Origin: Rubrobacter tropicus
Lineage (GTDB): Bacteria; Actinomycetota; Rubrobacteria; Rubrobacterales; Rubrobacteraceae
Assembly (NCBI RefSeq): GCF_011492945.1
Contig: NZ_CP045119.1
Location: 1,488,001-1,552,000 of the forward strand
DNA length: 64,000 nt
Direction of reading: 5' to 3'
The position numbers were made by a program, and so were the translations under genes. Shown here in pieces: positions 4,120-31,113 of this stretch (position 1 is its first letter; every line of letters starts with the position of its first letter). The notes below the pieces were generated by a model that saw only the letters and a list, made by a program, of their open reading frames with translations, was not told where the DNA came from and searched no databases.

Positions 4120-4310
4120 CCTCGTCAGCTTGTCAGCAAGTCATTTGTACACGTTGCGTCTCCCGGCACCCGAACCCCTGCGCAAAGCGCGCCCCGGTCC
4201 CGCCCCGCGCGGCAAGAAGCTGACAGGCTGAGAGCGGAGGCCATAGGCCGAAGCGTGCTGACGAGCGGAGCCCGGAGGGCGCAGCGGGCTGACTAGCTGA
4301 CAAGCCGGCC
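4120..4310. repeat. Dispersed hairpin repeat, copy R1
   Basis: Intergenic block with repeated CAGCTTGTCAGC / GCTGACAGGCTGA arms around a GC-rich core (about 4140-4205). The same core, in the opposite orientation, occurs in copy R3 near 23430-23500 (CAGCTTCTTGCCGCGC). The inner edge encodes the last residues and stop of hutI. It is one of at least six copies in the window. Confidence 0.75.
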
Positions 4311-5531
4311 GGCTTTTATCGTCGCCGCGAAACGGTCTCCGCCGAGGTGGTAGGCGAGGTAACGCCAGTCCGGGGCGTCGAGGACGAGGACGTCGGCCTT
4401 GTAGCCGGGGGCCAGGCGCCCCACGTCTGGGAGATCGAGTACGTGGGCCGCGTTCGCCGTGCAGGCCGTCAGGGATTCGGCGGGGGAGAGGCCGAGGCGG
4501 GTGCAGGCGAGGTTCATGGCGAGCGGGAGGGACTCGGTGAAGGAGCTTCCGGGGTTGAAGTCCGTGGCGAGCGCGAGGATGGCGCCTTCGTCGGCGAGCC
4601 GACGGGCGGGGGGAAGGGGGAGGTCCAGGAAGAGGCCGCACGCAGGGAGGAGGACCGCGGCCACGTTGCTTTTCGCCAGCAGCCGGACGCCGGCATCGCC
4701 CGTGTTTTCGAGGTGGTCCACGCTGCGGGCGCCGAGCTCTATCGCCAGAGGGATGGCGCCGCGCTCGGAGAACTGGTCCGCGTGCAACCGCGGGGCCAGA
4801 CCGTGCTCCCGGCACGCCTCAAGGTAACGCCGCGCCTCGGGGACCTCAAACGAGCCCCGCTCCAGGAAGACGTCGGCCTGGCGGGCCAGCGTGGCGGCCT
4901 CGGGGAGCGCCGACCGGACCACGAACCCGACGTACTCGGCGGCGGTGTCGAACTCCGGCGGCACCGTGTGGGCGCCGAGGAAGGTGGGGGAGACGTCGAT
5001 GAAGCTCCCTTTCGCGGCGTTCGTGATTGCCTTGAGGGATTTGATCTCGGTCTCCGCGTCGAGCCCGTAGCCGGACTTTGCCTCCGCGGTCGTGGTGCCG
5101 TGTTCCAGCATCCAGGCCAGGTGCCGCCGCACCGCGGCGGTAAGCTCCTCCTCGCTCCCCCGGCGGGTCGCTTCCACGGTCGAGAGGATGCCGCCGCCGG
5201 AGGCGTGGATCTCCTCGTACGAAGCCCCGCCCGACCGCAACTCGAACTCCGCCGCCCGGTCCCCGAGAAAGGCCGGGTGGGCGTGGCAATCCACCAAACC
5301 GGGCAAGGCGACCTTCCCACGCCCGTCCATCGTCTCGCAATCCGGTCTGGGCGGATAGTCCCGCAGCACCTCATCCGGCGCTCCCACGGCCAAGACGCGA
5401 TCTCCGGCGATCGCCACGGAGGCGGGAGAGTGGACCTGCAACCCTCCCAGGTCCCGCCCGCGAAGCGGCCCGCTCCCTCGCGGCGACACGGCCGCCGCGA
5501 GGTCGTGGACAAAGAGCGTGGTTTCAGCCAT
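4293..5531 (-). CDS. hutI: Imidazolonepropionase
   Basis: Third step of histidine breakdown: hydrolyses 4-imidazolone-5-propanoate to N-formimino-L-glutamate. It is an amidohydrolase-superfamily enzyme of 412 residues. The metal ligands are visible as DCHAHPAF near residue 80, GAHTVPPE, LHADQFSE and ALATDFNPGSS. The start is ATG at 5531, giving MAETTLF; it overlaps the hutF stop by 8 bases (ATGGCTGA), so translation is coupled. The stop lies inside repeat R1, and the last few residues (RLVS) are encoded by the repeat edge. It is the last gene of the hut operon. Confidence 0.93.
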   Translation of the reverse strand: MAETTLFVHDLAAAVSPRGSGPLRGRDLGGLQVHSPASVAIAGDRVLAVGAPDEVLRDYPPRPDCETMDGRGKVALPGLVDCHAHPAFLGDRAAEFELRSGGASYEEIHASGGGILSTVEATRRGSEEELTAAVRRHLAWMLEHGTTTAEAKSGYGLDAETEIKSLKAITNAAKGSFIDVSPTFLGAHTVPPEFDTAAEYVGFVVRSALPEAATLARQADVFLERGSFEVPEARRYLEACREHGLAPRLHADQFSERGAIPLAIELGARSVDHLENTGDAGVRLLAKSNVAAVLLPACGLFLDLPLPPARRLADEGAILALATDFNPGSSFTESLPLAMNLACTRLGLSPAESLTACTANAAHVLDLPDVGRLAPGYKADVLVLDAPDWRYLAYHLGGDRFAATIKAGRLVS

Positions 5532-6777
5532 CGCCGAACACCTTCCGTCCGGCCACCCACGTCCCCGCCACGACGGCGCTTCCCGCCCCAAAGACGAGCG
5601 CGGACGGCAGCGCTTCGGGCTCTACGTCCGCCACCGCCGGATGCGTCAGGTCGATCTCGATAAAGTCAGCCGCCACGCCCGGCTCCAACGCCTCCCGCCC
5701 CCAGCCCGCCCGCAGGAGCCACGGCGTCGGCGAAAGCTCCCCTGATGGCACGAGGACGTTTCTGCTTCCACAGAGCCTCCGCGCGTTCGTCTCTATCTCC
5801 CTCAGCTCCTCGAAAGGATCCAGCCGAACGTGCGAGTCGGACCCGATGGAGAGCGGGATGCCGCGCCCCACGATGCCATCCGCCGGCAAGAACCCGTCCC
5901 CCAAATTGCCCTCCGTCGTGGGACACGCGCAGATCGTGGAGCCGCGTTCGGAGATGAGGTCTAGCTCGCGGGCGTCCGCGTGCGTGGCGTGGACGACGGT
6001 CGCGCGCGGGCCGAGAAACCCGGTCTCCGCCAGAAGCTCGACGGGCCTCATCCCGTGCTCCCGTACGCACTCCTCGACCTCACGCGGCTGCTCGTCCGCG
6101 TGGGCGTGGAGGGGCAGGCCGTTGGCGTTGGCATACTCCGCGATCCCCTCCAGCCACCCGCGCGGCACCGCCCGCACGCTGTGCGCCGCCACCCCGATGT
6201 CTACGAAACGAAGGCCTTTTGCCCGGTCCCTCAAAGAGTCCACCCTTGCCAGGAAATCTTCGAGGTCGGGGTCTCGAAAACGTGGCAGGCCGCCCCGGGC
6301 GTAGGCCACTGGGAGCAGCAGCAGCCCGATACCGACGTCCTCGGCCGCGGAGATCAGGGCCTTAGCCAGCGCGTTCGGGTCCTCGTACGGCGTACCGTCC
6401 GGGCGGTGGTGTACGTAGTGGAACTCCGTCACGCTCGTGTACCCGGCCGACAGCATCTCCGCGTAACACCGCCGCCCGGCCTCCCGCATCGAATCAGGGT
6501 CCGATCCCTCGGCCAGCGCGTACATCCGCTCCCGCCACGTCCAGAAATCGTCGCGCGGGTGCCCCGAATCCACCCTCTCCACAAGACCCCGCAGCCCGCG
6601 CTGAAAGGCGTGGCTGTGGTCGTTCACGAACCCCGGCATCAAAGCCCGGCCGGCCAACCGCTCCCCCTCAGAAGCCGGCCCAACCCCAACCACGACCCCA
6701 TCATCTACACCCACGCCGATACCGCCACGCGCCCCACGCGCGTCCACGATGAGATCCGGCACAAGCACCCTTTTCAT
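5524..6777 (-). CDS. hutF: Formimidoylglutamate deiminase
   Basis: Converts N-formimino-L-glutamate to N-formyl-L-glutamate and ammonia, the deiminase branch of histidine degradation. The protein has 417 residues in the amidohydrolase superfamily. Characteristic stretches are VNDHSHAFQRGLRG near residue 50, TSVTEFHYVHH near 115, LPLHAHADEQ and VHATHADARE. ATG 6777 gives MKRVLVPDLI. It lies 79 bases downstream of hutU and overlaps hutI. HutF requires an N-formylglutamate deformylase (HutG) downstream; no HutG is seen here, which makes the M20 enzyme at 10071 a candidate. Confidence 0.88.
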   Translation of the reverse strand: MKRVLVPDLIVDARGARGGIGVGVDDGVVVGVGPASEGERLAGRALMPGFVNDHSHAFQRGLRGLVERVDSGHPRDDFWTWRERMYALAEGSDPDSMREAGRRCYAEMLSAGYTSVTEFHYVHHRPDGTPYEDPNALAKALISAAEDVGIGLLLLPVAYARGGLPRFRDPDLEDFLARVDSLRDRAKGLRFVDIGVAAHSVRAVPRGWLEGIAEYANANGLPLHAHADEQPREVEECVREHGMRPVELLAETGFLGPRATVVHATHADARELDLISERGSTICACPTTEGNLGDGFLPADGIVGRGIPLSIGSDSHVRLDPFEELREIETNARRLCGSRNVLVPSGELSPTPWLLRAGWGREALEPGVAADFIEIDLTHPAVADVEPEALPSALVFGAGSAVVAGTWVAGRKVFGDG

Positions 6778-6856: not shown

Positions 6857-8524
6857 TTACTCATCCATCATCGGCATCTGGATACCAAGTCGCCCGGCGG
6901 CGGCCCGCGCCGTTTCGTAGCCGGCGTCGGCGTGGCGGACCACTCCTATGCCGGGGTCGTTGAAGAGGACGCGGGCGAGCCTGGCGGCGCCCTCTTCGGT
7001 TCCGTCGGCGAGGACCTGGGCGCCGGCGTGGATGGAGCGGCCGATGCCGACGCCGCCGCCGTGGTGGACCGCCACCCAGCTCGCGCCGCCTGCGGTTGCG
7101 AGCAGGGCGTTCAGGACGGGCCAGTCGGCTATGGCGTCGGAGCCGTCTTTCATGGCCTCAGTCTCGCGGTAGGGTGAGGCGACGCTGCCCGTGTCGAGGT
7201 GGTCGCGGCCTATGATAATGGGGGCGCTTATGGTGCCTTCGGCGACTAGCTCGTTGAAGCGGAGGCCGGCGCGGTGGCGCTCGCCCGCGCCGAGCCAGCA
7301 GATGCGGGAGGGGAGGCCCTGGAAGTGGACCTTCTCGCGGGCCTCGGAGATCCAACGCGTCAGACGCTCGTTCTCGGGGAACAGATCCAGCATCGCGTCG
7401 TCGGTCGCGGCTATGTCTGCCGGATCTCCGGATAGCGCCGCCCACCGGAAAGGCCCCTTGCCCTCGCAGAACAGCGGCCTGATGTAGGCCGGAACGAAAC
7501 CCGGATAGCTGTACGCTTTGCCGTAGCCGCCGAGCTTGGCCTCGCCGCGCAGGGAGTTGCCGTAATCGAAGACCTCGGCTCCGCGCTCCCCGAAGCCGAC
7601 CATCGCCTCGCAGTGGACGGCCATCGAGCGGCGGGCCTCCTCGACGTAGCGGTCCGGGTTTGCCCCGCGCAGATCTGCGGCGGTGTCCAGGTCGTAGCCG
7701 GCCGGGACGTAGCCGACCAGCGGGTCGTGGGCCGAAGTCTGGTCCGTGACGACGTCGGGGACGAAGCCGCGGTTCAGGAGGGCCGGAAAGACTTCGGCCG
7801 CGTTGCCGAGGATGCCGATGGAGACGGGTTCACCGTTGCGTTTCGCTTCCTCGGCGCGGGAGACGGCGGCGTCGAGGTCGTCTACGCGTTCGTCGAGGTA
7901 GCGGTGTTCGATGCGGCGTTCGATCCTGGCCTCGTCCACCTCGACGCAGAGGGCGACCCCCTCGTTCATCGTTATGGCGAGTGGCTGAGCCCCGCCCATC
8001 CCCCCGAGGCCCGCGGTCAGGGAGATGCGTCCCTTAAGCGTGCCGCCGAAGCGTTTTTCGGCCACCGCCGCGAAGGTCTCGTAGGTGCCCTGGAGGATGC
8101 CCTGGGTGCCTATGTAGATCCAGGATCCCGCGGTCATCTGGCCGTACATCGTCAGGCCCGCTTTTTCGAGCTCCCTGAAGGTCTTCCAGTCGGCCCACTC
8201 GGGGACGAGGAGGGAGTTGGCGATCAGGACGCGCGGCGCCCACGGGTGCGTCCTGAAGACCGCCACGGGCTTCCCCGACTGGACGAGCAACGTCTCGTCG
8301 TTATCGAGGCCCTGGAGGGTCGAGACTATCGCCCAGAACGCCTCCCAACTTCTGGCCGCTTTCCCGGTCCCCCCGTAGACGACGAGGTCTTCCGGGCGTT
8401 CGGCTACATCGGGGTCGAGGTTGTTCATGAGCATCCTGAGGGCGGCCTCCTGGTGCCAGCCCTTGCAGGTGAGGTCCGTGCCCCTCGGGGCGCGGATGGT
8501 GGGTGCCTTCTCGACGCTCGTCAC
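6857..8524 (-). CDS. hutU: Urocanate hydratase
   Basis: Second step of histidine degradation: hydrates urocanate to imidazolone propionate using tightly bound NAD+ as electrophile. The product has 555 residues, the usual length. Visible family features are the [15 protein letters not shown] stretch, the NAD-binding [12 protein letters not shown], the active-site cysteine stretch [11 protein letters not shown], and a C-terminal [13 protein letters not shown]. The chosen GTG start at 8524 ([10 protein letters not shown]) overlaps the hutH stop as GTGA and has a GGAGG site in the hutH tail. Longer in-frame extensions upstream read through hutH on another frame and are not real. Confidence 0.95.
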
Positions 8525-10074
8525 TGCTGCCTCCTTGCGGCTGGTGCGTTCGCGGCTTCTCTGGCGGCCTTCACGGCTTCTCCCGACTCGACGAGGTCCT
8601 GCATCGCCTTCAGGTCGGGGGCCAGGAAGCGGTCCCGGTCCGTGAAGGGGACGCGCTCCCTTATAGTTTTCAGGGCGGCGCGGGTGGCGGGGGCCGGCTC
8701 CAGCGGCGCGCGGAGCTCTATCGCCTGGGCGGCGCAGAGGAGTTCCGCGGCCAGGATGCGGGAGAGGTTGGTAAGGACCTGGCGCAGCTTGCGGGCGGCG
8801 CTCCAGCCCATCGAGTTGTGGTCTTCTTGCATGGCGGAGGTCGGAAGGGAGCCTGTGCTCGCCGGGTTCGCGAGGCGGCGGTTCTCTTCGGCGAGGGCGG
8901 CCGCGGTGTAGTGGGAGATCATGTACCCGGAGTTGACGCCCGGGTCGACCGCTAGAAACGCTGGCAGCCCCTGGGAGCGGGAGGGGTCGAGGAGGCGGTC
9001 GATCCTGCGCTCCGAGATCGCGCCCACCTCGGACGCCGCGATGGCGAGAAAGTCCAGCGGCAGGGCGAGAGGCTCCCCGTGGAAGTTGCCGGCGCTCTCG
9101 ACCCGCCCGTCCGGCAACACCACGGGGTTGTCGGTCACGGAACTCAGCTCCCTCTCGGCGGCAAGCCTGGCGAACCCGAGGGTGTCGCGGGCCGCGCCGC
9201 AGACGACGGGGGCGCAGCGCAGGGAGTAGGCGTCCTGGACGAGGTGGCGGGAGGCCTTGTGGGAGGAGACGATCCCGCTCCCCGCGAGCATCCGGGCGAT
9301 GTTGCCGGCGCTCTCGGCCTGTCCGGGATGGGGCCTTATGGCGTGGAGCTCCTCCTTGAAGACGCGGTCGGTCCCGAAGGCGCCCTCGACGCTCATGGCC
9401 GCCGCCAGGTCCGCCGCGTCGAGCAGGAGCCCGAGGTCTTCGAGGGCGAGGACGAGCATCGCCAGCATCCCGTCCGTGCCGTTTATGAGGGAGAGCCCCT
9501 CTTTCTCCCGCAGGACGAAGGGTTCGAGGCCCCGCTTCGAGAGCGCCTCCGCTGCGGGGACGGTTTCCCCGTCCTCGAGCGCCCAGCCTTCCCCGCAGAG
9601 GCACAGGCCGATGTGGGCGAGGGGGGCGAGGTCCCCGCTGGCGCCGAGCGAGCCGTGTTCCGGGACGGCTGGCACCACGCCCGAGTCGAGCATCGCGGCC
9701 AGGGCGTCGACCAGCTCCACCCGCACGCCCGAATAACCCATCGCCAGGGTCTTTACCCGGATCGCCATCATCCCGCGCACGACCTCGGGCTCTATAAACG
9801 GGCCGACCCCGGCCGCGTGGCTCCGCAGTAGCGACCTCTGCAGCTCGCGCCCGGCCTCGGGCGCGATGCGCGTGTTCGCCAGCGCCCCGAAGCCCGTGTT
9901 TACGCCGTAGACCGCGGTTCCCCCGTCGGTGATCCCCTCGACGTGTACCCGCGCCGCCCGCACACGCCCCCGTGCCTCCTCGTCGACTTTCACCGTCGCC
10001 CCGCGACGGGCGATCGCCACCACGGCCTCCGTGTCCATGCGGTCCACCCGAACCTCCCCGCCCGCGGACGTCAT
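8521..10074 (-). CDS. hutH: Histidine ammonia-lyase
   Basis: First step of histidine degradation: removes ammonia from L-histidine to give trans-urocanate. The 517-residue protein keeps the complete active site: Tyr56 in YGVNTGFG, the self-cyclising Ala145-Ser146-Gly147 in [14 protein letters not shown] that forms the MIO electrophile, LINGTDG, and [10 protein letters not shown] with the second catalytic Tyr. The start is ATG at 10074, overlapping the M20 hydrolase stop as ATGA. It is the canonical enzyme to compare with the MIO-less paralogue encoded at 12259. Confidence 0.96.
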
Positions 10075-11300
10075 CGCAGGCCCCGAAGCATCACCGACGG
10101 CTCTCCTCGCGGGCTTTCCATCAACAGGCAAAGCACCCCCAGGGCCGCCTCCACGTCCTCTTCCGCGACCGCCTCCCCCGGCGCGTGGCTCACGCCGTTC
10201 TCGGAGGCCACGAAGAGGAGCGCTGACGGGACGACCGCGGCTAGGTGCTGGGCGTCGTGGCCGGCGAAGCTGACGCACCGGCCGCACCGGACCCCAAGCC
10301 GCGCGCACGCCTCCTCGACGGCGGCGACCATCGCCCCGTCCATCTCCGTCGGTTCGGATGCCGAGATCTGCCCTTCCTCCAGGTACACGCCGCGCCGATC
10401 CGCGGCTTTCCGCGCGCCGTCCAGCAACTCCTCCAGCAGACGCCGCGCCCCGCCGGGTCTCACGCCCCTGATGTCGACGCCGAGTTTCGCCGTGCCGGGG
10501 ATGCTCGTGAGGGAGTTTGGGTGGATCTCCAGGGTGCCCACGGTCGCCGTCGTCTCCGGCGCGCAACGGCGGCCGAGTTCCTCGGCGAGCAGCACGGTCT
10601 CAGCCGCGGCGCAGAGGGCGTCGCGGCGTTCTGAGGCCGGGGTCTCCCCGGCGTGGGCGACCTCGCCGGAGAACCGCAGCCCGTGGCGGACGGGGCCTGC
10701 GATGGTCGTCGCAACCCCCAGGGAGAGCCCTTTGTCGCGCAGGGCGGCGCGCTGCTCTATGTGGACCTCGACGTGGGATGAGACCCTTTCGAGTGGGGCG
10801 CTTCGGAGACGCGGAAGGCCTCCCAGGGCGTCGAGGTACTCGGCGCGGGCCGTCAAGGCGTCGAGGCCGCCGGTGTCCCGAAGCCGTGAGAGATCTCCTT
10901 CCGAGAGCTTGCCCGTCATGGAGCGCGACCCGATGGTGCCCGCCCCGAAGCGCGAAGCCTCTTCGGCGGCGCACACGAGCACGCCCCGACCCCCGCCGGC
11001 CCTTGATGCGGCCTCGACGGCGAGCACGGTGCCCAAAGGTCCGTCGTACCTGCCCCCGCCGGGCACGGTGTCGACGTGCGAGCCGCTCGTGACGCAGGGC
11101 GCGTCGCCTGGCGGGAGGCACCAGAGGTTGCCGTGCGGGTCGACGCTCGGTTCGAGGCCCGCCTCGCGTGCCCAGGCGGCCACCAGCAGCATCGCCCGGG
11201 CCTCGGCCCGGGAGAACGCCGGGCGAGAGGCGCCGCCGTTCTTTCCCGGCGAGAGGGCGAAGAGCTCCTCGATGCGTCCGTGAACCCTTGCCAACGTCAT
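10071..11300 (-). CDS. M20 family Zn amidohydrolase (hydantoinase/carbamoylase type)
   Basis: A 409-residue cytosolic dinuclear-zinc amidohydrolase. Metal and substrate residues are visible in [34 protein letters not shown] and EVHIEQ, and [11 protein letters not shown] near the C-terminus. Characterised relatives are N-carbamoyl-L-amino-acid hydrolases and allantoate amidohydrolases, which cleave an N-acyl group such as carbamoyl from an amino acid. It lies inside the hut operon, overlapping both neighbours by ATGA, where a HutG deformylase would be expected. I infer that it may release glutamate from N-formylglutamate. The family is fairly certain; the substrate is not. Confidence 0.8.
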
Positions 11301-12142
11301 TCGGCGAACCAGCCCAGGTTCTGGGCGCGTTGTTCGAAATCTTCGAGGTTGGCCTGCGCCCGCCGGGGGGCGGCGTCGGAGAGGGCTTCGATCAGGACCG
11401 TCGAGAGCGCCATCGCCGCGGTCTGCGAATCGAAGACGAGCCTCGTCCCCACTCCCGCCGGCAGCACGACCTCGGCGGCCCCGGATACCGGGCCGCCTAC
11501 CCTGTCGCTCACGGCGGCGACCCGAAGCCCGAGCTCCCGCGCGTACTCCATCAACGCCAGGGTCTCCCTCGGATAACGGGGCAGCACGAAGCAGAGCGCC
11601 CACCCGGCGCCCGCGCGCCTCGCCTGGGCCAGGCGGTCCGTGCCGGCGCTCCCGCCGTCCGTGATGGTCCTGACGTCCGGGTGCAGCTTCTCCGCGAAGT
11701 ACGAGAAGAACCCCGCGAGCGGCGCGCTCGCCCTCAAACCGACCACGACGAGCGGTACCGAGGAGGCGAGGTCCCGCCCCAGTTCAGCTATCTTCCCGTC
11801 GTCCTCCAGAGCCCCGCGCAAGGCGCGGAGGTTGGAGATCTCCTCGTCCACGGCCGCCTGGAACTTGTTGCCACCGGCCTCTTCTACCGTGCCGAGGACG
11901 ACTCGACGAAGATCCTTCTGGAACTCCCCGTATCCCCCGTACCCGAGCGCGACCGCCAGCCGCGTTACCGTGGGCTGGCTGACCCCGGCCCTGGACGCGA
12001 GCTCCACGCTCGACAGGAACGGCGCCTCCCTCGGATGGTCGGCCACGTACCGCGCCACCCGCCGCTGCGTCGGCGAGAGCCTCCCCCCGTCGAAGAGCGC
12101 CGGCAACCGCTCCAGACCGTTCTCCATGGAAGACGAAGCCAC
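11297..12142 (-). CDS. MurR/RpiR family transcriptional regulator of the hut operon
   Basis: A 281-residue regulator with an N-terminal RpiR helix-turn-helix (about residues 20-80; LASRAGVSQPTVTRLAVALG is the recognition region) and a C-terminal SIS domain (about 125-255) that in this family binds a phosphosugar or other small ligand. It is the first gene of the hut operon, overlapping the M20 gene by ATGA. A 16-base palindrome overlaps its own -10 box, which suggests autorepression and control of the hut genes. GTG 12142 is used here; ATG 12127 is an alternative start with a GGTGG site. HutC (GntR) is the more usual hut regulator, so RpiR here is a variant arrangement. Confidence 0.85.
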   Translation of the reverse strand: MASSSMENGLERLPALFDGGRLSPTQRRVARYVADHPREAPFLSSVELASRAGVSQPTVTRLAVALGYGGYGEFQKDLRRVVLGTVEEAGGNKFQAAVDEEISNLRALRGALEDDGKIAELGRDLASSVPLVVVGLRASAPLAGFFSYFAEKLHPDVRTITDGGSAGTDRLAQARRAGAGWALCFVLPRYPRETLALMEYARELGLRVAAVSDRVGGPVSGAAEVVLPAGVGTRLVFDSQTAAMALSTVLIEALSDAAPRRAQANLEDFEQRAQNLGWFAE

Positions 12143-12226: not shown

Positions 12227-12258
12227 ACAAAGAATTGTTAGATTCAGGAGAGTGGGGT

Positions 12259-13833
12259 TTGGACCCTCTATCTTTGGGTGGGGGCACGGTAGTTCTCACG
12301 GGCGACGACCTGTACATAGAGGAGGTCGTGCGGGTGGCGCGGCGGGGGGCGAGGGTCGCGGTCTCCGGGGAGGCTCTCGACCGGGTGCGGCGGGCGCGGG
12401 AGGTGGTCGAGCACGTGTTAGAGAGGGGTGACCCTGTCTACGGGATGAACACGGGCGTCGGGTCGCTCTCGCGTTACAGGGTGCCGTTCGAGCACCTGGA
12501 GCAGTTCTCCGCGACGCTCGTAAGCCGGCACACGACGCACCAGGGGGCCGAGGTAAGCCCTGAAATCGTGCGGGCGATGATGGTGACGCGCGTCAACGGG
12601 ATGGCGAAGGGCGGGGTGGGGGTGAGGACCGAGCTTCTCGGGGCGTTCGTGGACGCGTTGAATGCTGGGGTGCATCCCGTCGTGCGGCTCGGGGGGTCGG
12701 TCGGGCAGGCGGACCTCGCGGAGATGGCCGAGATCGGGCAGGTCCTCATCGGCCGTGGCGAGGCCGACTACAGGGGCGAGCGCATGGGCGGGACCGCCGC
12801 GTTGAGAGCCGCGGGCCTCCAACCCATCCGATTAAAGGCCAAAGAGGGCCTCGCCCTCATAAGCGCCAACGGCATCACGATGGGCCACGGCTCGCTGGTC
12901 CTCTCCGACGTGGCCGACCTGCTCGACGTCTTCGACATAACGGCGGCCCTCTCGATGGAAGCCTTCGGGGCGAACCTCTCGACCGTGCACCCCGAGGCGG
13001 CCCGGCTACGGCCGCATCCCGGGCAGGCGCGGGCGGCGGACAGGCTGCGGGAGTTGCTCGCGGACAGCTATTTGTGGCGGCCTGGGGCCGCAAGAAACCT
13101 TCAGGACCCGCTCTCGTTCCGGTGCGTGCCGCAGACCCACGGGGCCAGCTACGACGCGCACGCGTACGCCAGGGGGACGATGGAGGTGGAGATCAACTCC
13201 GCCGGCGACAACCCACTCGTCCTCATAGAAGACAAGACGATCATCTCCGTCGGCAACTTCGACGTCGTCGCCCTCGCCGTCGCCTTCGACCTCCTCCGCG
13301 TGGCCGTAGCCCAGGTAGTCCACCTCGCCAACGAGCGCATCCAGAAGCACCTCTGGTCCCAGTTCTCCGGCCTCCCGACCGGCCTCGCCGCCCGCGACGG
13401 CGACGAGGGGCTGCGGCCCCTGGGTTACACCTCCGCCTCGCTCGCCGCGGAGGCGCGCGTGCTCGCCAACCCCGTCTCGCTCGACTACCGGGGCCAGATC
13501 GCCGAGGGCGTAGAAGACCACGCCAGCATGGCCCCCTTAGGCGTCCGCAAGACCGACGAGCTCGTGGACGTAGCCCGCCGCATCGCCGCCCTCGAGCTTA
13601 CCGTCGCCACCCGCGCCGTGGATCTGCGCGGCCGTCCCCGCCTCGGCACCGGCAGTCGCGCGGCCTACGACCTCGTCTCCCGCTACGCCGCCACCGAGCC
13701 CGAAGAACACTGGCCCGACCTGGACGGCCTCACGCAAGCCATTGCCGGCGGACGGCTTATCGCGCACGTGGCCTCGGAAATCGGGTTGCTGGAACCAGTC
13801 TCGACGCCCGGAGACGCAGTAGGACCAGAATGA
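12259..13833 (+). CDS. HutH/PAL-family lyase homologue lacking the MIO triad
   Basis: A 524-residue homologue of histidine/aromatic ammonia-lyases over its whole length. The catalytic Tyr loop is kept (YGMNTGVGSL, Tyr61), as are an Asn in SANGITMGHG (Asn204) and Arg288. The MIO-forming Ala-Ser-Gly is Gly149-Gln150-Ala151 (motif GGSVGQADLAEM, codons at 12703-12711), and the second active-site Tyr (QDPYS in HAL) is Leu285 in QDPLSFRC. Without Ser-Gly cyclisation the MIO group cannot form, so ordinary ammonia-lyase chemistry is unlikely. The start is TTG 12259, 8 bases after AGGAG; a TTG at 12235 is in frame but lacks a site. It is divergent from the hut operon and shares its control region. A different elimination, an isomerase or a regulatory role are possible. 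Confidence 0.75.
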   Translation: MDPLSLGGGTVVLTGDDLYIEEVVRVARRGARVAVSGEALDRVRRAREVVEHVLERGDPVYGMNTGVGSLSRYRVPFEHLEQFSATLVSRHTTHQGAEVSPEIVRAMMVTRVNGMAKGGVGVRTELLGAFVDALNAGVHPVVRLGGSVGQADLAEMAEIGQVLIGRGEADYRGERMGGTAALRAAGLQPIRLKAKEGLALISANGITMGHGSLVLSDVADLLDVFDITAALSMEAFGANLSTVHPEAARLRPHPGQARAADRLRELLADSYLWRPGAARNLQDPLSFRCVPQTHGASYDAHAYARGTMEVEINSAGDNPLVLIEDKTIISVGNFDVVALAVAFDLLRVAVAQVVHLANERIQKHLWSQFSGLPTGLAARDGDEGLRPLGYTSASLAAEARVLANPVSLDYRGQIAEGVEDHASMAPLGVRKTDELVDVARRIAALELTVATRAVDLRGRPRLGTGSRAAYDLVSRYAATEPEEHWPDLDGLTQAIAGGRLIAHVASEIGLLEPVSTPGDAVGPE

Positions 13834-14834: not shown

Positions 14835-15743
14835 CTACTGTGCCTGTTTGGCGGCGTCTATCGCCGGCTTGACCACGTCGCGGTTCTGCTCCAGCCAGGC
14901 AGCGGCGCCCTTCACCGCGTCGTCGTCGGCGGCGAGGATCTCTTCCTCCAGCGAGTTCAGGTCGTCTTCGGTGAGGCTGATCTCGTTAAAGAAAGCGTAG
15001 GCCACGGGGTCGTCGGACTCGAGGTCCTCGTTGACGATGCTGGAGATCTTCGCCGGCTCGTCGAGGTTGCCCTGGGCGTTCTTGGGGTCTTCGAGGTACT
15101 TGAAGTCGTACCTGGTGTTCATCCAGTGCGGGGACCAGCCCATGAACACGAAGGGCTCCTTGTCCGGGTAGAGCCGGCTGACCTCGGAGAGCATCGCCGC
15201 GGTGCTGGAGGCCTCGAGTTCCAGGTCGAGGTTGTAGGCCGGGATCACGTCTTCCTCGGTCTTCTGCACGAGTATCGCGCCGGGCTCGATGCCGATGATC
15301 CTGTCGGCCCCGGACTCGTTGAGGTCCGCGATGCTGTTGGTGTCCTTCATGTAGCTCGGGACCGCGAGCCCGAAGGCCGTCTCGCCCTGGTACCACGGGT
15401 CGAGGTGCTCGACGTCGTTCTCGACCTTCGCGAGCAACTGCTCGTGGTTGGGCATCCACACGTCCTGGAAGGCGTCCACGTCGCCGCCGGCAACACCCTC
15501 GAAGACGAGGCCGAGGTCGAGCGTCTGAAGCTCCACTTCCTGGTAGCCCAGGTCTTCCTCCATGATTACCTTGGTCAAGCCGTTTATGGCGACGTTCTCC
15601 GTCCAGCCGATGTTTCCGAGGGTGAGCGTCTTGCTGGAGTTGTCACCCGAGGAGCCGCCGGATTGGGCCCCCCCGCAACCGGCAATCGCCAGCGCGACCA
15701 CGAGCGCCAACAGAACCGCCAGCAAACTCTTGCTAATCTTCAT
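14835..15743 (-). CDS. proX: Glycine betaine/proline ABC transporter substrate-binding lipoprotein
   Basis: Extracytoplasmic receptor that hands glycine betaine or a related quaternary amine to the ProVW transporter. The 302-residue protein has a lipoprotein signal: a basic MKISK start, a hydrophobic core and the lipobox IAGCGG. The mature part is an OpuAC-type type-II binding fold (LGNIGWTENVAINGL, DVDAFQDVWMPNH, FMGWSPHWMNTRYD), with the aromatic WSPHW stretch expected for cation-pi binding of the ligand. ATG 15743 is chosen because GGCGAGGAC precedes it; an in-frame upstream start at 15779 would spoil the signal peptide. It is the last gene of a proV-proW-proX operon. Confidence 0.88.
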   Translation of the reverse strand: MKISKSLLAVLLALVVALAIAGCGGAQSGGSSGDNSSKTLTLGNIGWTENVAINGLTKVIMEEDLGYQEVELQTLDLGLVFEGVAGGDVDAFQDVWMPNHEQLLAKVENDVEHLDPWYQGETAFGLAVPSYMKDTNSIADLNESGADRIIGIEPGAILVQKTEEDVIPAYNLDLELEASSTAAMLSEVSRLYPDKEPFVFMGWSPHWMNTRYDFKYLEDPKNAQGNLDEPAKISSIVNEDLESDDPVAYAFFNEISLTEDDLNSLEEEILAADDDAVKGAAAWLEQNRDVVKPAIDAAKQAQ

Positions 15744-15856
15744 GTCCTCGCCTTCATGTCGACTACACGTCTCGAACACGGCTATTGCGCGGTTCGATGG
15801 TGCTTAAAAGATACGTACGTTCGGGATGCCTTCCTGGATGCTCGACCCCCGAAGGT

Positions 15857-16822
15857 TCAATTACCAGATCCTCCATCGGACGAAGACCCCGCGCCGACGG
15901 ACGCACCGGACACCGACCCGGGGTTCGATCTCTTACCCGAGAAGACCTTCGAGATACCGCCTCCTTTGTCCTTTGTTCTCTCCAGGCCGCGCGTGACGCG
16001 GTCGAGGATGATGGCGAGGATCACGATCCCCACCCCGCCCACCATCGCCTGCCCGACGTTGAGCTGGCCGAGACCTGCGACCACGATCTCGCCCAATCCT
16101 CCGAAGCCGACCAACCCGGCGATGACCGCCATCGAGAGCGAGAGCATGATGACCTGGTTGACCCCGGCCATAATGGACCGGAGCGAGAGCGGCAGCTCCA
16201 CCTTCGACAGCGTCTGCCACGGCGTTGCCCCGAAGGCGTGGGCGGCCTCCACGGTCTCTTTTGGCACCTGCTGTATGCCCAGCATCGTCAGGCGGACGGC
16301 GGGCGGCGTGGCGAAGATGACCGTCGCGATCAGGGCCGGCGGGTTGCCGGTGCTTAGCAGCACCACCACGGGCACCAGGTAGACGAACGCCGGGAGCGTC
16401 TGCATCACGTCCAGAACGGGCCGGATGAACGTCTCGAAACCGCGGTTCTTGGCCGCTATTATTCCTATGGGTATACCGATAGCCAGCGACACGACCGTCG
16501 CCGCCAGGGTCAGCGCGAGCGTCTCCATAGACTGATCCCAGAGTCCGAGACCGACGATTAGCAAAAGTCCCAACACGGTGAAAACCCCGACCCGCCAGCC
16601 CGCAGCGACGAAAGCGACGACCGTCAAAATGGTGATCATGAGCAACTCGGGAGGCGCGGCCAACACGAACACCAGAGCCTCGACGAAGGTGTCCATGACG
16701 TCTTGAACGACGTCGAAGAACCCGTCGAACTTCTCCGTTACGTACTCCTCCGCGCTGTTTACCCAGCCTTCGAGCGGTATCCAGTCCTCCGGGATGATCT
16801 GGGCCTGCGACAGACGACCCAT
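15857..16822 (-). CDS. proW: Glycine betaine/proline ABC transporter permease
   Basis: The membrane channel of the importer: 321 residues with about six to seven transmembrane segments between residues 40 and 285. The ABC-permease EAA loop, which contacts the ATPase, is EAAHAFGATPWQTLSKVELP. The N-terminal 45 residues are hydrophilic, as in ProW. It starts 3 bases after the proV stop, so it is co-translated. The C-terminal tail of about 35 residues (Ser/Gly-rich) is longer than usual. Confidence 0.88.
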   Translation of the reverse strand: MGRLSQAQIIPEDWIPLEGWVNSAEEYVTEKFDGFFDVVQDVMDTFVEALVFVLAAPPELLMITILTVVAFVAAGWRVGVFTVLGLLLIVGLGLWDQSMETLALTLAATVVSLAIGIPIGIIAAKNRGFETFIRPVLDVMQTLPAFVYLVPVVVLLSTGNPPALIATVIFATPPAVRLTMLGIQQVPKETVEAAHAFGATPWQTLSKVELPLSLRSIMAGVNQVIMLSLSMAVIAGLVGFGGLGEIVVAGLGQLNVGQAMVGGVGIVILAIILDRVTRGLERTKDKGGGISKVFSGKRSNPGSVSGASVGAGSSSDGGSGN

Positions 16823-16824
16823 TC

Positions 16825-18021
16825 CTACCGCCTCTCCCCGTTGACCTCGCTTGGGTGGCGGCCTACGCCGCTGAAGCTCCCGGCGTCCTCGTCGTCCTGG
16901 TGTTCGGTGCTCGTGGTGAGGCCGGCGATGAGCGAGCCGCGCACTACCGCGCCTTCGAGGCGGCCTTCTTCGTTAGTGACGGCGACGGGCGCGTTCCCGT
17001 CGTCCACGAAGAGCGGCAGCACCTCGCGCAACGGGGTCCTCCGTCCGACCTTGCGGGGTCCCCTGTCGATGGCGGGCCTGAGTTCCCTCGCGTCCCGCTC
17101 GGCGAGCCTGGCGACCTCTTCGGCCTCGGCAATCCCTACGAGGCGCCGGTCTTCTTCCAGCACGAAGATGTGGGAGAGTCCCTCCTGCTTCATGCGCCGC
17201 AGGACTACCGTTGGGCCCTCGTTGGTGTAGGCGACGCTCTTGGGCTTCACCATGACGGTCTCGGCGGTGCGGACCTTGGCGTAGTCCACGTCTTCCACGA
17301 AGCGTTCGACGTACTCGTCGGCGGGCTCGCGCAGGATCTGCTCCGGGGTGCCCAACTGCACGATCTTGCCGTCCTTCATGATCGCAACCCGGTGGCCCAG
17401 CGTGAGCGCCTCGTCGAGGTCGTGGGTCACGAAGACGACCGTTCGCTGGATCTCGCCCTGGATCGAGAGGAACAGGTTCTGCATGTCGCGCCGGATCAGG
17501 GGGTCCAGCGCGCTGAACGGCTCGTCCATGAGCAAGACTTCCTGCTTGGTGGCCAGCGCGCGCGCGAGCCCGACCCTCTGCTGCATCCCGCCCGAGAGCT
17601 CTGTTATGAGCTTATCGCCCTGGCCCTGCAAACCGACCATGTCGAGGGTCTCCTCGGCGGCCTTGCGGCGCTCGCCTTTGGGCACACCCTGTATCTCCAG
17701 GCCGAAGGAGATGTTGTCGAGGACGGTCCGGTTCGGCAAGAGCCCGAAGTGCTGGAAGACCATCCCGATCTTTTTGCGCCGGACCTCTCTTAGCTGCTTG
17801 GAGGGCATCTTGGAGATGTGGTCCCCGTCGAGGTAGACGTCGCCCTCGGTCAGCTCGTTCAGGCCGTTGACGGCCCTGAGGATCGTGGACTTTCCGCTCC
17901 CGGAAAGGCCGATGATCACGAAGATCTCGCCCGGATAGACGTGAAAGGTGGCGTCGTAGGCGCCGATGGTGGACCCCGTCGCCTTCTCTACCTCCGCCTT
18001 GCTCTTCCCCTGCCGGCTCAT
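16825..18021 (-). CDS. proV: Glycine betaine/proline ABC transporter ATPase with CBS domains
   Basis: A 398-residue ATPase that powers osmoprotectant uptake. Walker A is GLSGSGKST, the signature is LSGGMQQRVGLARAL, Walker B is VLLMDEPFSALD and the H-loop is VTHDLDE. The C-terminal 120 residues (about 270-370) form a pair of CBS modules, which in OpuA act as an ionic-strength or c-di-AMP sensor. It is the first gene of the operon, transcribed from the promoter at 18226-18254 with a leader of about 200 bases. The ribosome site next to ATG 18021 is weak. Confidence 0.9.
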   Translation of the reverse strand: MSRQGKSKAEVEKATGSTIGAYDATFHVYPGEIFVIIGLSGSGKSTILRAVNGLNELTEGDVYLDGDHISKMPSKQLREVRRKKIGMVFQHFGLLPNRTVLDNISFGLEIQGVPKGERRKAAEETLDMVGLQGQGDKLITELSGGMQQRVGLARALATKQEVLLMDEPFSALDPLIRRDMQNLFLSIQGEIQRTVVFVTHDLDEALTLGHRVAIMKDGKIVQLGTPEQILREPADEYVERFVEDVDYAKVRTAETVMVKPKSVAYTNEGPTVVLRRMKQEGLSHIFVLEEDRRLVGIAEAEEVARLAERDARELRPAIDRGPRKVGRRTPLREVLPLFVDDGNAPVAVTNEEGRLEGAVVRGSLIAGLTTSTEHQDDEDAGSFSGVGRHPSEVNGERR

Positions 18022-18822: not shown

Positions 18823-19779
18823 TTATTCGATGATGCCAGCGTCTTCCAGGTGGCCCTGGGCGACGTCTTCCGGGTCCTCCTGCTCGAGGTCGACCGCGCC
18901 GTTCAGCTCGCGCATCTTGTCCGCGTCGAGGCTGGCCGAGACTTCGTTGAGGATCTTCTTGGCGTCCGGGTTCTTGTCAAGGAACTCCTGGGTGATGACC
19001 GGGGCCGGGTAGTACTTCGGCCAGATGTCCTTGTTGTCCTCGATCACCTTCAGCTCGGGGGAGGCGAGCTGGCCGTCGGTGGTGAACCCGATGCCAACGT
19101 CGGCCTCACCCTCGGCCAGAGCCTTGTAGCGGATGCCGAGGTCGTTGACGATCTTGATGTCCTTGAAGTCGAGCTCAGGGTAACTGTCCTGCATGTTCTT
19201 GTAGCCGTCCGAGCGGTTCTGGAACTCCGAATACGAGGAGAACACGAGCTCGTCGGACTGGGCGGCGAGGTCGTCCAGGTTCTCTATGCCCCGCTCGTTC
19301 GCCTCCTTGCTCAACATCACGATGCCGTAGTTGTTCTCGAAAGGCGCCGGCTCGAGCATTTGCATCGGCGTGTCTTTGCGGTTCTTGTAGAACTTGGCGA
19401 CCTGCCTGTAGGTTTCCTCTGCCGACTTCGGATACGACTCCGGCGGCTTCTTCAGGATAGCCACGTAGGCCGTGCCCGTGTACTCGGGATAGACGTCTAT
19501 GGTGCCGTCCTGGAGGGACTTGTCCATGACCTGCTCCGAGCCGAGGTCCAGCTTGCGCTCGACGTTGTAGCCCTCGTCTTCGAAGGCCTGGGCGTACATC
19601 TCGCCGAGGAGTATCTGCTCGGTGAACTTCTTCGAGCTAACCGTGATGCTCGGGCCGTCGCTGCTGCTGCCCCCGCCTCCTCCGCCGCAGGCAGCCGCGA
19701 CGAACACCAGGGCGGTGATCAGCATGGCCGTTACCGCCCGGATAAACATTGTCTTGTTCTTCACTCTCTCTCCCGTCAT
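18823..19779 (-). CDS. Osmoprotectant ABC transporter substrate-binding lipoprotein (OpuC/OsmF type)
   Basis: A 318-residue extracytoplasmic receptor for a quaternary amine such as choline, carnitine or betaine. The signal peptide ends in a lipobox (FVAAACGG). The family pattern SSKKFTEQILLGEMYAQ and the aromatic TIDVYPEYTGTAY region match the OpuBC/OpuCC/OsmF (QAT) group. The ATG 19779 overlaps the preceding permease stop as ATGA. It is the last transporter gene of the ATPase-permease-permease-receptor operon. Confidence 0.87.
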   Translation of the reverse strand: MTGERVKNKTMFIRAVTAMLITALVFVAAACGGGGGGSSSDGPSITVSSKKFTEQILLGEMYAQAFEDEGYNVERKLDLGSEQVMDKSLQDGTIDVYPEYTGTAYVAILKKPPESYPKSAEETYRQVAKFYKNRKDTPMQMLEPAPFENNYGIVMLSKEANERGIENLDDLAAQSDELVFSSYSEFQNRSDGYKNMQDSYPELDFKDIKIVNDLGIRYKALAEGEADVGIGFTTDGQLASPELKVIEDNKDIWPKYYPAPVITQEFLDKNPDAKKILNEVSASLDADKMRELNGAVDLEQEDPEDVAQGHLEDAGIIE

Positions 19780-20435
19780 TTGGTTGCTCTTCCTCTCTTC
19801 TGGGCTATACGAAGCCCCTTTGGGGTAAACGTGCGTTCGAGCGCGGCGAAGCCGAGCTCGGTGATAACCGCCAGGACCGCCACCGAGAAAGCCCCGGCGA
19901 GGGATATGGCCGTGTCGTTGCGCTGGAACCCCTCGACTATATAGTCGCCCAACGCGCCGCCGCCGATAAACGTCGCCAGGGTCGCGCTCGCCACCACCTG
20001 CACCGCCGACGTTCGGATGCCGGCGAAGATGATGGGGGCTGCTATCGGGATCTGGATGCCCGTGAGGACCTGGCGGCCCGAGAGCCCCATGCCCTTCGCC
20101 GAGTCCAGGATCTGGGCGCTAACCTGCCGCAGCCCCACCACCGCGTTTATGAGGATCGGCGGAATGGCGAGGAGCGTCAGGGCGAACAGCACACTGTCGA
20201 ACCCTAGCCCGAAGACCGGGAACATCAGGACCAGCACCGCGAGCGAAGGCACCGCGCGCCCGATATTACCTACGTTAATGGCGAACGTGGAGGCCGCGTC
20301 CGAGCGGTTCACAAGCACCGCCACCGGGATGGCGACCAGCAGTCCAATAAGCGTCGCCAGTACCGTGTACTCGATGTGGATGATCAAGTTCTCGATAAAG
20401 TCCGGGCGTTGCAGGGTTTCGATAAACCTGTCCAT
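19776..20435 (-). CDS. Osmoprotectant ABC transporter permease (second subunit)
   Basis: A 219-residue inner-membrane permease with about six spans, the typical length of OpuCB/OpuCD-type subunits. The cytoplasmic loop DSAKGMGLSGRQVLTGIQIP is the EAA-like ATPase contact. It overlaps the receptor gene by 4 bases and follows the other permease by one base, so the two probably form a heterodimeric channel. Confidence 0.87.
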   Translation of the reverse strand: MDRFIETLQRPDFIENLIIHIEYTVLATLIGLLVAIPVAVLVNRSDAASTFAINVGNIGRAVPSLAVLVLMFPVFGLGFDSVLFALTLLAIPPILINAVVGLRQVSAQILDSAKGMGLSGRQVLTGIQIPIAAPIIFAGIRTSAVQVVASATLATFIGGGALGDYIVEGFQRNDTAISLAGAFSVAVLAVITELGFAALERTFTPKGLRIAQKRGRATK

Positions 20436-20436
20436 C

Positions 20437-21168
20437 TTATGCCGCCCCCCTCGCCCGGCGGGCCCACGGGCTCATCATCCGTTCCGCACGGACGAACAGC
20501 AAGTCGGCCGCAATCGCGAGCAGGGTCGAAAGAACCGCCCCGGTTATGTACATGGTCGGGAAGTCGCGCTGGATGCCACTGAAAATCAGGACGCCTAGCC
20601 CGCCGGCCCCGATGTACGCGCCTATGACCGCGATGCCGATGACCGTGACGATAGCTATGCGCATCCCGGCTACTATTACCGGCAGCGCCAGCGGCAACTC
20701 GACCCTCCAGAGTATCTGCCGGTCGGTCAAACCCATCCCGCGTGCCGCGTCCTTGGTCTCGGGCGGCACCGAGTCAAGACCCGTCACCACGTTTCGGATA
20801 AGGACGAGCAGCGAGTAGAGCACGAGCGCTATGACTGCCGGCGTTGTGCCAGCGCTTAGCCCGACGACGAACAGCAGGATGGTGAACATGGAGAAGCTAG
20901 GAATCGTGTAGAAAAACCCCGTGAGCGCCGTCAGAGGAGGGTAGATCCTGCGGTAGCGCGCGGCGAGGATGCCGAGCGGCACCGAGATGAGGATCGCGAT
21001 GGCGAGTGAGACGAAGCACAAAAAGATGTGCTGAAGAAACGCCGGCACCACGTCTTCGGTGAAGTTGTCGCCCAGCCATTCCCAGTCTATGAAGCCATCC
21101 TGCGCGCTCTCGGGGGCGAAGTCTTGCAGAAAGGCGAGCACCGCGGAACCGCTCGTTAGGCTAGCCAC
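20437..21168 (-). CDS. Osmoprotectant ABC transporter permease (first subunit)
   Basis: A 243-residue permease paralogous to the protein encoded at 19776, with a longer hydrophilic N-terminus (about 35 residues) and six membrane spans. The EAA-like loop is DAARGMGLTDRQILWRVELP. It overlaps the ATPase gene by 8 bases. The two-permease arrangement is characteristic of OpuC/Osm systems and distinguishes this importer from the ProVWX system encoded next to it. Confidence 0.87.
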   Translation of the reverse strand: MASLTSGSAVLAFLQDFAPESAQDGFIDWEWLGDNFTEDVVPAFLQHIFLCFVSLAIAILISVPLGILAARYRRIYPPLTALTGFFYTIPSFSMFTILLFVVGLSAGTTPAVIALVLYSLLVLIRNVVTGLDSVPPETKDAARGMGLTDRQILWRVELPLALPVIVAGMRIAIVTVIGIAVIGAYIGAGGLGVLIFSGIQRDFPTMYITGAVLSTLLAIAADLLFVRAERMMSPWARRARGAA

Positions 21169-22138
21169 GCGGCGCCCCGGCGCCGTGGGAGATCTCCCTT
21201 ATGGAGTTGAGCGTGATCGTGCCGCTCGAAGCCCCGTTGCCGTCGCCGTTCTGAACCACCACGCCCCTGTCCGCCCCCGCGCCGATGATCTCCGAAAGGG
21301 CGTCCCTCAGGGTCCACTCCTCCCGGATTCGCGGCAGGTCGTGTCCGTTGGCGGTCGGCGGGTCGAGGTCCACGTCGCCGACGCGCGTGAGCGAGAGGCG
21401 CTTGAGGACCCTGTCGCCGCCGACGAAGGACTGCACGAACTCCGAGGCCGGGTTGACGAGCACGTTCTCGGGCGTGTCGTACTGGGCGAGGATGCCGCCT
21501 TCTTTCAGGATGGCGATCTTGTCGCCCATCTTTATGGCCTCGTCTATGTCGTGGGTGACGAAGACGATGGTCTTCTTGATGTCCTGCTGGATTCTCAAGA
21601 ACTCGTTCTGGAGCCTGTCGCGCGTGATGGGGTCGACCGCCCCGAAAGGTTCGTCCATGAGCATGATCGGCGGATCCGCCGCGAGCGCGCGGGCGACGCC
21701 TATCCTCTGTTGCTGGCCGCCCGAGAGCTCGGCCGGGTAGCGGTCGCGGTACTGATCCGCCGGCAGGCCGACGAGGTCCATGAGCTCGTCAACGCGCTCC
21801 TTCATCCTGCCCTTGTCCCATCCGAGCAGGTTGGGGACGGTGGCGATGTTGTCGGCGATGGTGCGGTGGGGGAAGAGGCCTATCTGCTGGATGGCGTACC
21901 CGATCTTGCGCCTGAGCTGCGTCCCGCTCATGGACGTGTTCGGCTCGCCGTCTATGAGGATCTCGCCCTCCGTCGGCTCGATGAGCCGGTTGACCATCCT
22001 CATGCTTGTCGTCTTGCCGCAACCGCTGGGACCCACCAGCACGCAGATCTCGCCGTCCTCTATGTTGAAAGTGAGGTCGTTTACGACGGGCCTGTCGGAC
22101 CCTGCATAGGTCTTGCTTACGCCCTTAAACTCGATCAT
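21161..22138 (-). CDS. Osmoprotectant ABC transporter ATPase (OpuCA-like)
   Basis: A 325-residue ATPase: Walker A GPSGCGKTT, signature LSGGQQQRIGVARAL, Walker B IMLMDEPFGAVD, H-loop VTHDIDEA. Beyond about residue 245 there is one recognisable CBS-like segment. The start chosen is ATG 22138 (MIEFKGVSKTY), preceded by AGGAG and overlapping the stop of a short basic reading frame. ATG 22168 with GGGAGG is an alternative that would add ten residues. First structural gene of the second osmoprotectant operon. Confidence 0.87.
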   Translation of the reverse strand: MIEFKGVSKTYAGSDRPVVNDLTFNIEDGEICVLVGPSGCGKTTSMRMVNRLIEPTEGEILIDGEPNTSMSGTQLRRKIGYAIQQIGLFPHRTIADNIATVPNLLGWDKGRMKERVDELMDLVGLPADQYRDRYPAELSGGQQQRIGVARALAADPPIMLMDEPFGAVDPITRDRLQNEFLRIQQDIKKTIVFVTHDIDEAIKMGDKIAILKEGGILAQYDTPENVLVNPASEFVQSFVGGDRVLKRLSLTRVGDVDLDPPTANGHDLPRIREEWTLRDALSEIIGAGADRGVVVQNGDGNGASSGTITLNSIREISHGAGAPRG

Positions 22139-22206
22139 CGCGCGCTCCTGTTCGTCCGTCCGTAGCATCGCCTCCCATGAACTCTTCTTCTCTTCGGTTC
22201 CGTCAT
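22135..22206 (-). CDS. Putative 23-residue basic leader peptide before the OpuCA-like gene
   Basis: ATG 22206 follows a strong site (GCAGGAGGCGCT). The peptide begins MTEPKRRRVHGRRC and contains 9 arginines and one lysine. Its TGA overlaps the ATG of the transporter ATPase as ATGA, the same coupling used throughout this genome. It could be a leader that couples or tunes translation. Conservation in relatives is not known. Confidence 0.4.
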   Translation of the reverse strand: MTEPKRRRVHGRRCYGRTNRSAR

Positions 22207-22314
22207 AGCGCCTCCTGCGGCGTTTAGGAATCGTTCCGGGAAGTATACGGCATTCTTGTGGGCCGAGTCCAAGCATTCCGCAAACATACTCTTTTCAGGG
22301 TATATAACGGTCGG

Positions 22315-27509: not shown

Positions 27510-27658
27510 AAGCGTAAAACCATGTGCTACGCTGCGGGCGTGGCAGAGAGCGTCGGCCCCGACTGGATGACGAGGAGTTTGGCTCCCGGTCCGGCGTACT
27601 CGAATTCTTCGCGCCGCGCCTGTCCTGGAGTCCTGCACACCACCGCGGAGGTAGAGCT

Positions 27659-28945: not shown

Positions 28946-28949
28946 CGCC

Positions 28950-30224: not shown

Positions 30225-30652
30225 GTCCAACCGTGGGCATCCTCGTCGGCAGCGACGCCGACCTTACATCCGTGGAAGGATGCACGGACCGCCTGGATGG
30301 CTACGGCGTGGAGTTCGAGGTAGAAGTCCGCGACGTTCACACCAATCCCGAATCCGTCTCCGAGTACGCGGGCACAGCCAGGGCGCGCGGGCTCAAAGTC
30401 CTGATCTGCGCCGCCGGCATGGCCGCGCACCTGGCAGGAACCGTCGCCGCCCGCACGGATCTACCCGTAATCGGCATCCCTCTATCCGCCGGAACGCTCG
30501 GCGGCTTCGACGCCCTGCTCGCGACCGTCCAGATGCCGGAAGGATCTCCGGTGGCGACGGTGGCAATAAACGGCGCTGCCAACGCCGCCGTGCTCGCGGC
30601 GCAGATCCTGGCTCTCTCTGACTCCGAGTTGGCGGAGAGGTTGGAGGGATAA
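30221..30652 (+). CDS. purE: PurE-family carboxyaminoimidazole mutase/carboxylase with unusual active-site loop
   Basis: Handles the carboxylation step that gives CAIR. 143 residues, a little short for the family (about 160). The N-terminal VGILVGSDADL and the C-terminal LLATVQMPEGSPVATVAI fit PurE well. The class I motif SAHRTP is DVHTNP here, and the usual GGAAHLPG is GMAAHLAG, so catalytic surroundings differ while the His is kept. No purK is found in this otherwise full operon, raising the question whether this enzyme uses AIR and CO2 directly. GTG 30221 overlaps purD. Confidence 0.85.
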   Translation: MSPTVGILVGSDADLTSVEGCTDRLDGYGVEFEVEVRDVHTNPESVSEYAGTARARGLKVLICAAGMAAHLAGTVAARTDLPVIGIPLSAGTLGGFDALLATVQMPEGSPVATVAINGAANAAVLAAQILALSDSELAERLEG

Positions 30653-30654
30653 AA

Positions 30655-31113
30655 ATGTCGGCGGCGCAGAGTCGAGGAGTAGTGGTCAAGATCTTCTCCC
30701 CCCTGGCTTACGTCGCGGTTCTTCTGGCCGCGATCCTTACGGCGCTGCTGACGGCAAGGACTCTGGAGTCTATATGGGGTTACGACGTACCCGTGTTTCT
30801 GTTCGTAGGCGCGGAATTGCTGGTCGCCGGAACCATTCTCTACATTGGGGCGCGAGCGCTACTCCAATTAGAGGGGTTACGACGGCCGCGTATCGTGGAT
30901 CATTTGCGAAGGTGCGCGTTACTCTACGCGTTGTTCGTCCCCCTGAGCGCTTTGCTGGTGGCGCTGGTGGATTTTGGAGACCCGGGCGGGGGCGGCTCTC
31001 TGGCGATAATGCTCTGTTTTGCCGCCGGCTACGCTATTCTCGTCGATACGGTCCTCCTCCTCTTCGTCGTTCGGAGGCGTTCTGGTCGTCAGAGGTTCAG
31101 GAGCCACGCATGA
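30655..31113 (+). CDS. Four-span membrane protein embedded in the purine operon
   Basis: 152 residues with four hydrophobic segments (about 15-35, 43-65, 85-105 and 115-138) and basic termini. No recognised family; layout only. It starts 3 bases after purE and overlaps purB by ATGA, so it must be translated with the pur genes. It might be a transporter-like or signalling protein tied to nucleotide supply, but nothing in the sequence shows this. Confidence 0.6.
   Translation: MSAAQSRGVVVKIFSPLAYVAVLLAAILTALLTARTLESIWGYDVPVFLFVGAELLVAGTILYIGARALLQLEGLRRPRIVDHLRRCALLYALFVPLSALLVALVDFGDPGGGGSLAIMLCFAAGYAILVDTVLLLFVVRRRSGRQRFRSHA

Follow-up and report, generated by a model that had tools for sequence, protein, structure and literature searches.

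The window analysed here, a stretch of 64,000 nucleotides of the Rubrobacter tropicus genome, encodes a lyase of the HutH family that lacks the MIO triad, falls in the same branch as ergothionase and stands at a canonical hut cluster. We infer that this enzyme converts an N-alpha-methylated histidine, hercynine being the likeliest, to urocanate; the specific reaction, an MIO-independent conversion of hercynine to urocanate and trimethylamine, seems to us evenly poised between right and wrong. With somewhat less assurance, we propose that it represents the first hercynine (histidine betaine) lyase, one that would enter the hut pathway at urocanate, open histidine-betaine degradation and, in some lineages, be the sole urocanate-forming lyase instead of HutH. 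A search of the open-access literature, including one for MIO-less family members, returned no hercynine lyase and no hercynine breakdown; given that most subscription journals lie outside it, this absence is unproven.

An MIO-free lyase of the ergothionase branch

The lyase gene is an intact open reading frame with an alternative TTG start at 12235, and a domain scan placed the aromatic amino acid lyase domain PF00221 on residues 18–473, in agreement with the full-length HutH homologue described in an earlier note on this DNA. The Rubrobacter tropicus genome has exactly two members of the HutH family. Where the other, the canonical HutH of the window, reads GSLG-ASG-DL (GS[VL]G-ASG-DL in HutH generally), the lyase reads GSVG-QA-DL. 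The Gly-Gln-Ala that the earlier note saw at 12703–12711 instead of Ala-Ser-Gly is correctly placed, and in our alignments the triad is absent through a loop one residue shorter, not through mere substitution; MIO therefore cannot form in the lyase. Similarly, the tyrosine of QDAYS in the window's HutH corresponds to Leu285, as had been noted for the QDPYS tyrosine. Of three residues noted as remaining, Tyr61 and Arg288 are indeed conserved between the lyase and HutH, but Asn204 does not correspond in position to HutH Asn194, which aligns with Ser202; Asn204 instead falls in an S-x-N motif common to ergothionase. Against TIGR01225, the curated hutH model, the lyase scored 391 bits, below the cut-off of 539.

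Table 1. Positions of the lyase, its motifs and neighbouring genes in the window
Feature	Position	Strand	Evidence
MIO-free HutH/ergothionase-type lyase (P0001, 524 aa)	12259..13833	+	PF00221 470 bits; PDB 6s7j E 1.4e-76; model pLDDT 92.1
GSVGQADL, QA in place of MIO triad, one residue shorter than HutH	12694..12717	+	alignments
QDPLSFRC, Leu285 replaces HutH tyrosine, octapeptide identical in ergothionase	13102..13125	+	alignments
Tyr390 codon; column is Lys/Arg in ergothionase and thiourocanate-linked relatives	13426..13428	+	alignments
RpiR-family regulator, divergent from lyase	11297..12142	-	PF01418; synteny in L033, L034, L036
M20 amidohydrolase, candidate N-formylglutamate hydrolase	10071..11303	-	TIGR01879 over cut-off; ErtE model 259 of 520 bits
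Canonical hutH with ASG triad	8521..10062	-	TIGR01225 650 bits, over cut-off
hutU, canonical urocanase	6857..8524	-	TIGR01228 930 bits vs 670 for thiourocanate hydratase
hutF, formimidoylglutamate deiminase	5524..6777	-	NF006681 494 bits, over cut-off
hutI, imidazolonepropionase	4293..5591	-	named by sequence inspection and syntenic homologues
Second, glycine-betaine OpuA-like ABC importer, lyase link less clear	14835..18021	-	PF04069; OpuA/OpuAC PDB matches; also in L035
OpuC/EgtU-like ABC importer, likely but unproven partner	18823..22276	-	PF04069; EgtUC aromatic cage kept; linked in L033, L035
OpuC/EgtU-like importer, binding protein	18823..19779	-
OpuC/EgtU-like importer, permease	19776..20435	-
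OpuC/EgtU-like importer, permease	20437..21168	-
OpuC/EgtU-like importer, ATPase	21161..22276	-

Four further family genomes encode orthologues sharing 83–95% identity (5 of 39 including that of the window), and all five proteins carry both GSVGQADL and QDPLSFRC. Pairwise dN was 0.03–0.12 and dS 0.49–0.96, a ratio of ∼0.06–0.12 that was similar to or below that of neighbouring hutU and hutH pairs, which indicates purifying selection on the lyase gene. The earlier note had asked about sequencing error and decay; the former was rejected given that one motif recurs in five assemblies, and the latter given the low dN/dS across orthologues.

Ergothionase was the best match of the lyase by sequence in the PDB (6s7j), by Foldseek with the AF2 model, and by VIA-align (Z 45.8, rmsd 1.7, 493 aligned), where a tyrosine aminomutase tied within 1 of it and was nearly as good. 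With a QDP[LV]-type pattern, a scan of 84,980 species genomes yielded 79 loci, from lineages that include Actinomycetota, Pseudomonadota, Chloroflexota and Deinococcota. Tyr61, Asp152, Gln282, Asp283 and Asp420 were invariant, and Arg288 and Glu419 nearly so, in a set of 54 diverse MIO-free proteins. A tree built by a quick method, with SH-aLRT supports and without bootstrap, placed all of these MIO-free proteins in one branch apart from HutH (SH-aLRT 100) and recovered the window clade within it (SH-aLRT 99); the lyase combines this position with the shortened MIO loop and the QDP[LV]S motif of the branch. Given that the branch includes ergothionase, which is MIO-free and releases trimethylamine from ergothioneine (PMC13405746), MIO loss has a precedent, and the earlier statement that all characterised family members need MIO does not hold.

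Further HutH-like proteins were observed outside the window clade. A separate MIO-free clade in Actinomycetota and Chloroflexota (L006, L009, L010, L013, L019, L098, L117, L124, L128, L142) has the motifs SVGA[AGS]D, QDPLSFRV and NGNFHP or similar. At L056, a different, long-branch MIO-free lyase (9589–11076, GSLGTGDLT) is part of a hut operon that also holds an importer, M20, hutU, hutF and hutI, with canonical hutH upstream. Very divergent HutH-like proteins with the motifs GxG[AS][SA]GEVI and QAPVSFR (L057 940–2439, L058 8151–9662, L059 4832–6415, L039 2839–4389) adjoin OpuC/EgtU-like importer genes; three family genomes with this type have hutU-hutF-hutI elsewhere, and canonical hutH was not found in them.

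The hut cluster, absence of hutH and importers

The lyase is located at a canonical hut cluster with hutU in all five genomes, so that homologues with the same motif form a conserved clade beside hut operons, the pattern for which the earlier note had suggested looking. The fullest gene order was lyase, divergent RpiR regulator, M20, (hutH), hutU, hutF and hutI; in L035 the lyase and hutU are directly divergent, and in L036 the M20 gene runs directly into hutU. The HutU proteins of the lyase loci are true urocanases, scoring 930–942 bits against 670–690 for the thiourocanate hydratase model, with the L035 hutU, cut by a contig end, left out of this in-place comparison. Given that HutF is present and that a search of the five lyase genomes gave no PF05013 N-formylglutamate deformylase, the M20 hydrolase probably performs the last hut step. 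Purine biosynthesis genes (PurA, PurD, PurB, PurL-like) lie downstream, at 27524–36407, and appear ordinary.

Canonical hutH is retained beside the lyase in the window genome and in two relatives, and the earlier note had concluded from the window that the paralogue is not simply replacing it. This fails as a generalisation. Locus L033 comes from G237, a genome rated 100% complete whose sole full-length family member is the MIO-free gene: the hutH place of the operon holds a deletion remnant (L033 14003–14239) in which residues 4–67 are fused in frame to 490–512, possibly by misassembly, and a genome search found no other canonical HutH. None was found in G296 either (60% complete); both are metagenome assemblies. 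More broadly, an MIO-free branch member occurred in 9/15 urocanase-bearing family genomes and in 0/24 others (Fisher 2.4e-5, a p value made optimistic by shared ancestry), three of the nine being of the very divergent L057–L059 type, in which L057 still has ASG. An MIO-free-branch protein was present in each of the five urocanase genomes where the search gave no canonical hutH, compared to 4/10 of the others (p 0.044).

Two ABC importers are encoded near the lyase (Table 1), and OpuAC-type proteins lie close to 19 of the 79 lyases in the genome scan. Compared using the EgtUC ligand-binding residues (PMC9732360), the binding protein of the OpuC/EgtU-like importer retains the quaternary-amine cage, which fits a betaine ligand; most of the binding proteins compared retain Glu375, which therefore does not discriminate between ligands. 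The replacement of the EgtUC thione-contact Thr274 by a Ser followed by Glu in hut-linked binding proteins is suggestive only. An importer-hutU pairing also occurs in L063 and L065, genomes where no MIO-free lyase was found; in both (L063 2737–9363, L065 1–6010) the OpuC/EgtU-like importer is followed directly by hutU and hutF. The ligand there may be histidine or a betaine, and the importer of the window may carry something other than the lyase substrate; we therefore dropped it as decisive proof of substrate and treat it as weak support. The open-access literature searched yielded nothing usable on histidine- or proline-betaine importers.

Candidate substrates of the lyase

Hercynine, or N-alpha-trimethylhistidine, differs from histidine in bearing a trimethylammonium group. 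HutH depends on MIO to expel the amino group, whereas trimethylammonium leaves readily unaided and is unable to add to MIO; elimination would then require no more than a base and residues that hold the imidazole. Tyr61, the catalytic tyrosine of HutH, could act as the base that removes the beta proton, while the imidazole would be held by residues such as His91, which stands where HutH has its imidazole-site histidine, and the shortened QA loop could give room to the methyl groups. Elimination of trimethylamine would then yield urocanate, to be converted to glutamate by the divergent hut operon through HutU, HutI and HutF, with the M20 hydrolase probably taking part. With hercynine as substrate, the loss of MIO thus agrees with the retention of the tyrosine and the imidazole-site residues of HutH and with a product that HutU handles.

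Several lines of evidence support this reading: ergothionase as best PDB and fold match, with the same loop and QDPLSFRC, the hut linkage at all five loci, the failure to find canonical hutH in G237 and G296, the co-occurrence with urocanase, the missing thiourocanate hydratase and PF04463, His91 and Tyr390, the importer cage, and purifying selection. Counting against it are the importer found without the lyase, the genome's own use of hercynine, the post hoc residue pattern described below, the metagenome origin of the assemblies without hutH, and the nearly equal match to tyrosine aminomutase. As to own use, Rubrobacter tropicus encodes EgtD and EgtB and makes ergothioneine through hercynine; an unregulated hercynine lyase would therefore drain an internal intermediate, and regulation would be needed.

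An ergothionase proper, splitting ergothioneine into trimethylamine and thiourocanate, the latter to be processed by a promiscuous HutU or by an enzyme not recognised here, is unlikely, even though the closest solved relative is ergothionase and the importer resembles EgtU. A sister clade (L072–L074, L085; 54–57% identical to the window clade over the alignment) does have ergothioneine-type partners: where flanks permit, its neighbour is thiourocanate-hydratase-like (732–737 bits, the best model yet below cut-off), and L072 has an ErtE-like hydrolase (516 bits vs a cut-off of 520). However, thiourocanate hydratase over cut-off was found in none of the 39 family genomes, the PF04463 desulfidase (2-thiouracil type) in none of the five lyase genomes, and an ErtE-like hydrolase over cut-off was absent from the window locus, where the M20 protein is far from ErtE (259 bits); the thione-contact Thr is also altered in the hut-linked binding proteins. 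Column 390 is Lys or Arg in ergothionase and two other thiourocanate-linked clades, and Tyr, Val, Asn or His in six urocanase-linked clades, including Tyr390 in the lyase; this correlate of our own analysis, not a published criterion, was spotted post hoc across nine clades (p 0.012), and its tracking of thiourocanate versus urocanase linkage is suggestive only. His91 is present in the window clade, whereas the sister clade has Gln or Met there. In these alignments and model scores, then, the lyase is inside the MIO-free branch yet lacks the tested correlates of ergothionase proper, a basic residue and thiourocanate hydratase.

Another histidine derivative that gives urocanate, such as N-alpha-dimethylhistidine, N-alpha-methylhistidine or a further imidazole amine, is also unlikely. 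The same hut-linkage evidence applies, and the number of methyl groups is not readable from context, but secondary and tertiary amines depart less easily, the sole characterised relative takes a trimethylammonium substrate, and the cage of the importer points to a quaternary amine.

Direct replacement of HutH by an MIO-independent histidine ammonia-lyase is rather more doubtful. His91, Tyr390 and Arg288 are HutH-like, canonical hutH was not found in two orthologue genomes, and the importer-hutU pairing exists in L063, where no MIO-free lyase was found; nevertheless, the window genome and two relatives also keep hutH, and MIO removal kills activity in family members, as in the Rubrobacter xylanophilus PAL, where S153A removes MIO and abolishes activity (PMC3903478).

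The earlier note had left a choice between another reaction on a histidine- or urocanate-like ligand, which survives as the best reading, and a sensor, which found no positive support: a pseudoenzyme serving the hut operon as a sensor of histidine or urocanate would suit the MIO loss beside a canonical hutH, but is highly improbable given the conservation of Tyr61, Gln282, Asp283, Asp420 and, nearly, Arg288 and Glu419, a relative that is a proven enzyme, the persistence of the lyase where hutH is gone, and the separate RpiR regulator already at the locus.

If hercynine is indeed the substrate, the missing enzyme for histidine-betaine breakdown would be named and a new bacterial source of trimethylamine recognised. 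Proteins annotated as histidine ammonia-lyase may also be members of a large MIO-free family that uses other substrates.

Comparison with known systems

The lyase shares with HutH (TIGR01225) its fold, the equivalents of Tyr61, His91, Arg288, Glu419 and Tyr390, and the hut cluster, and differs from it in lacking the ASG triad, and hence MIO, in having Leu for the QDPYS tyrosine, and in its score below the model cut-off. Like the ergothionase of Treponema denticola (PDB 6s7j/6s7q), it has an MIO-free HutH fold with the same loop shortening, QDPLSFRC and S-x-N; unlike ergothionase, to which it is ∼31% identical, it has Tyr390 in place of Lys383 and a urocanase pathway nearby, with no thiourocanate hydratase over cut-off. 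Under the hercynine reading, HutH with MIO, the MIO-free hut-pathway lyase and ergothionase would form a series in which the cofactor is dispensed with alongside a better leaving group. The bacterial ergothioneine catabolic operon (ergothionase, thiourocanate hydratase, ErtE) follows a similar logic, with an MIO-free lyase, a urocanase-family hydratase, an M20 enzyme and a quaternary-amine-type importer. In contrast to that operon, the hydratase here is a true urocanase, with HutI and HutF coming after it, and the locus therefore suits a sulfur-free product.
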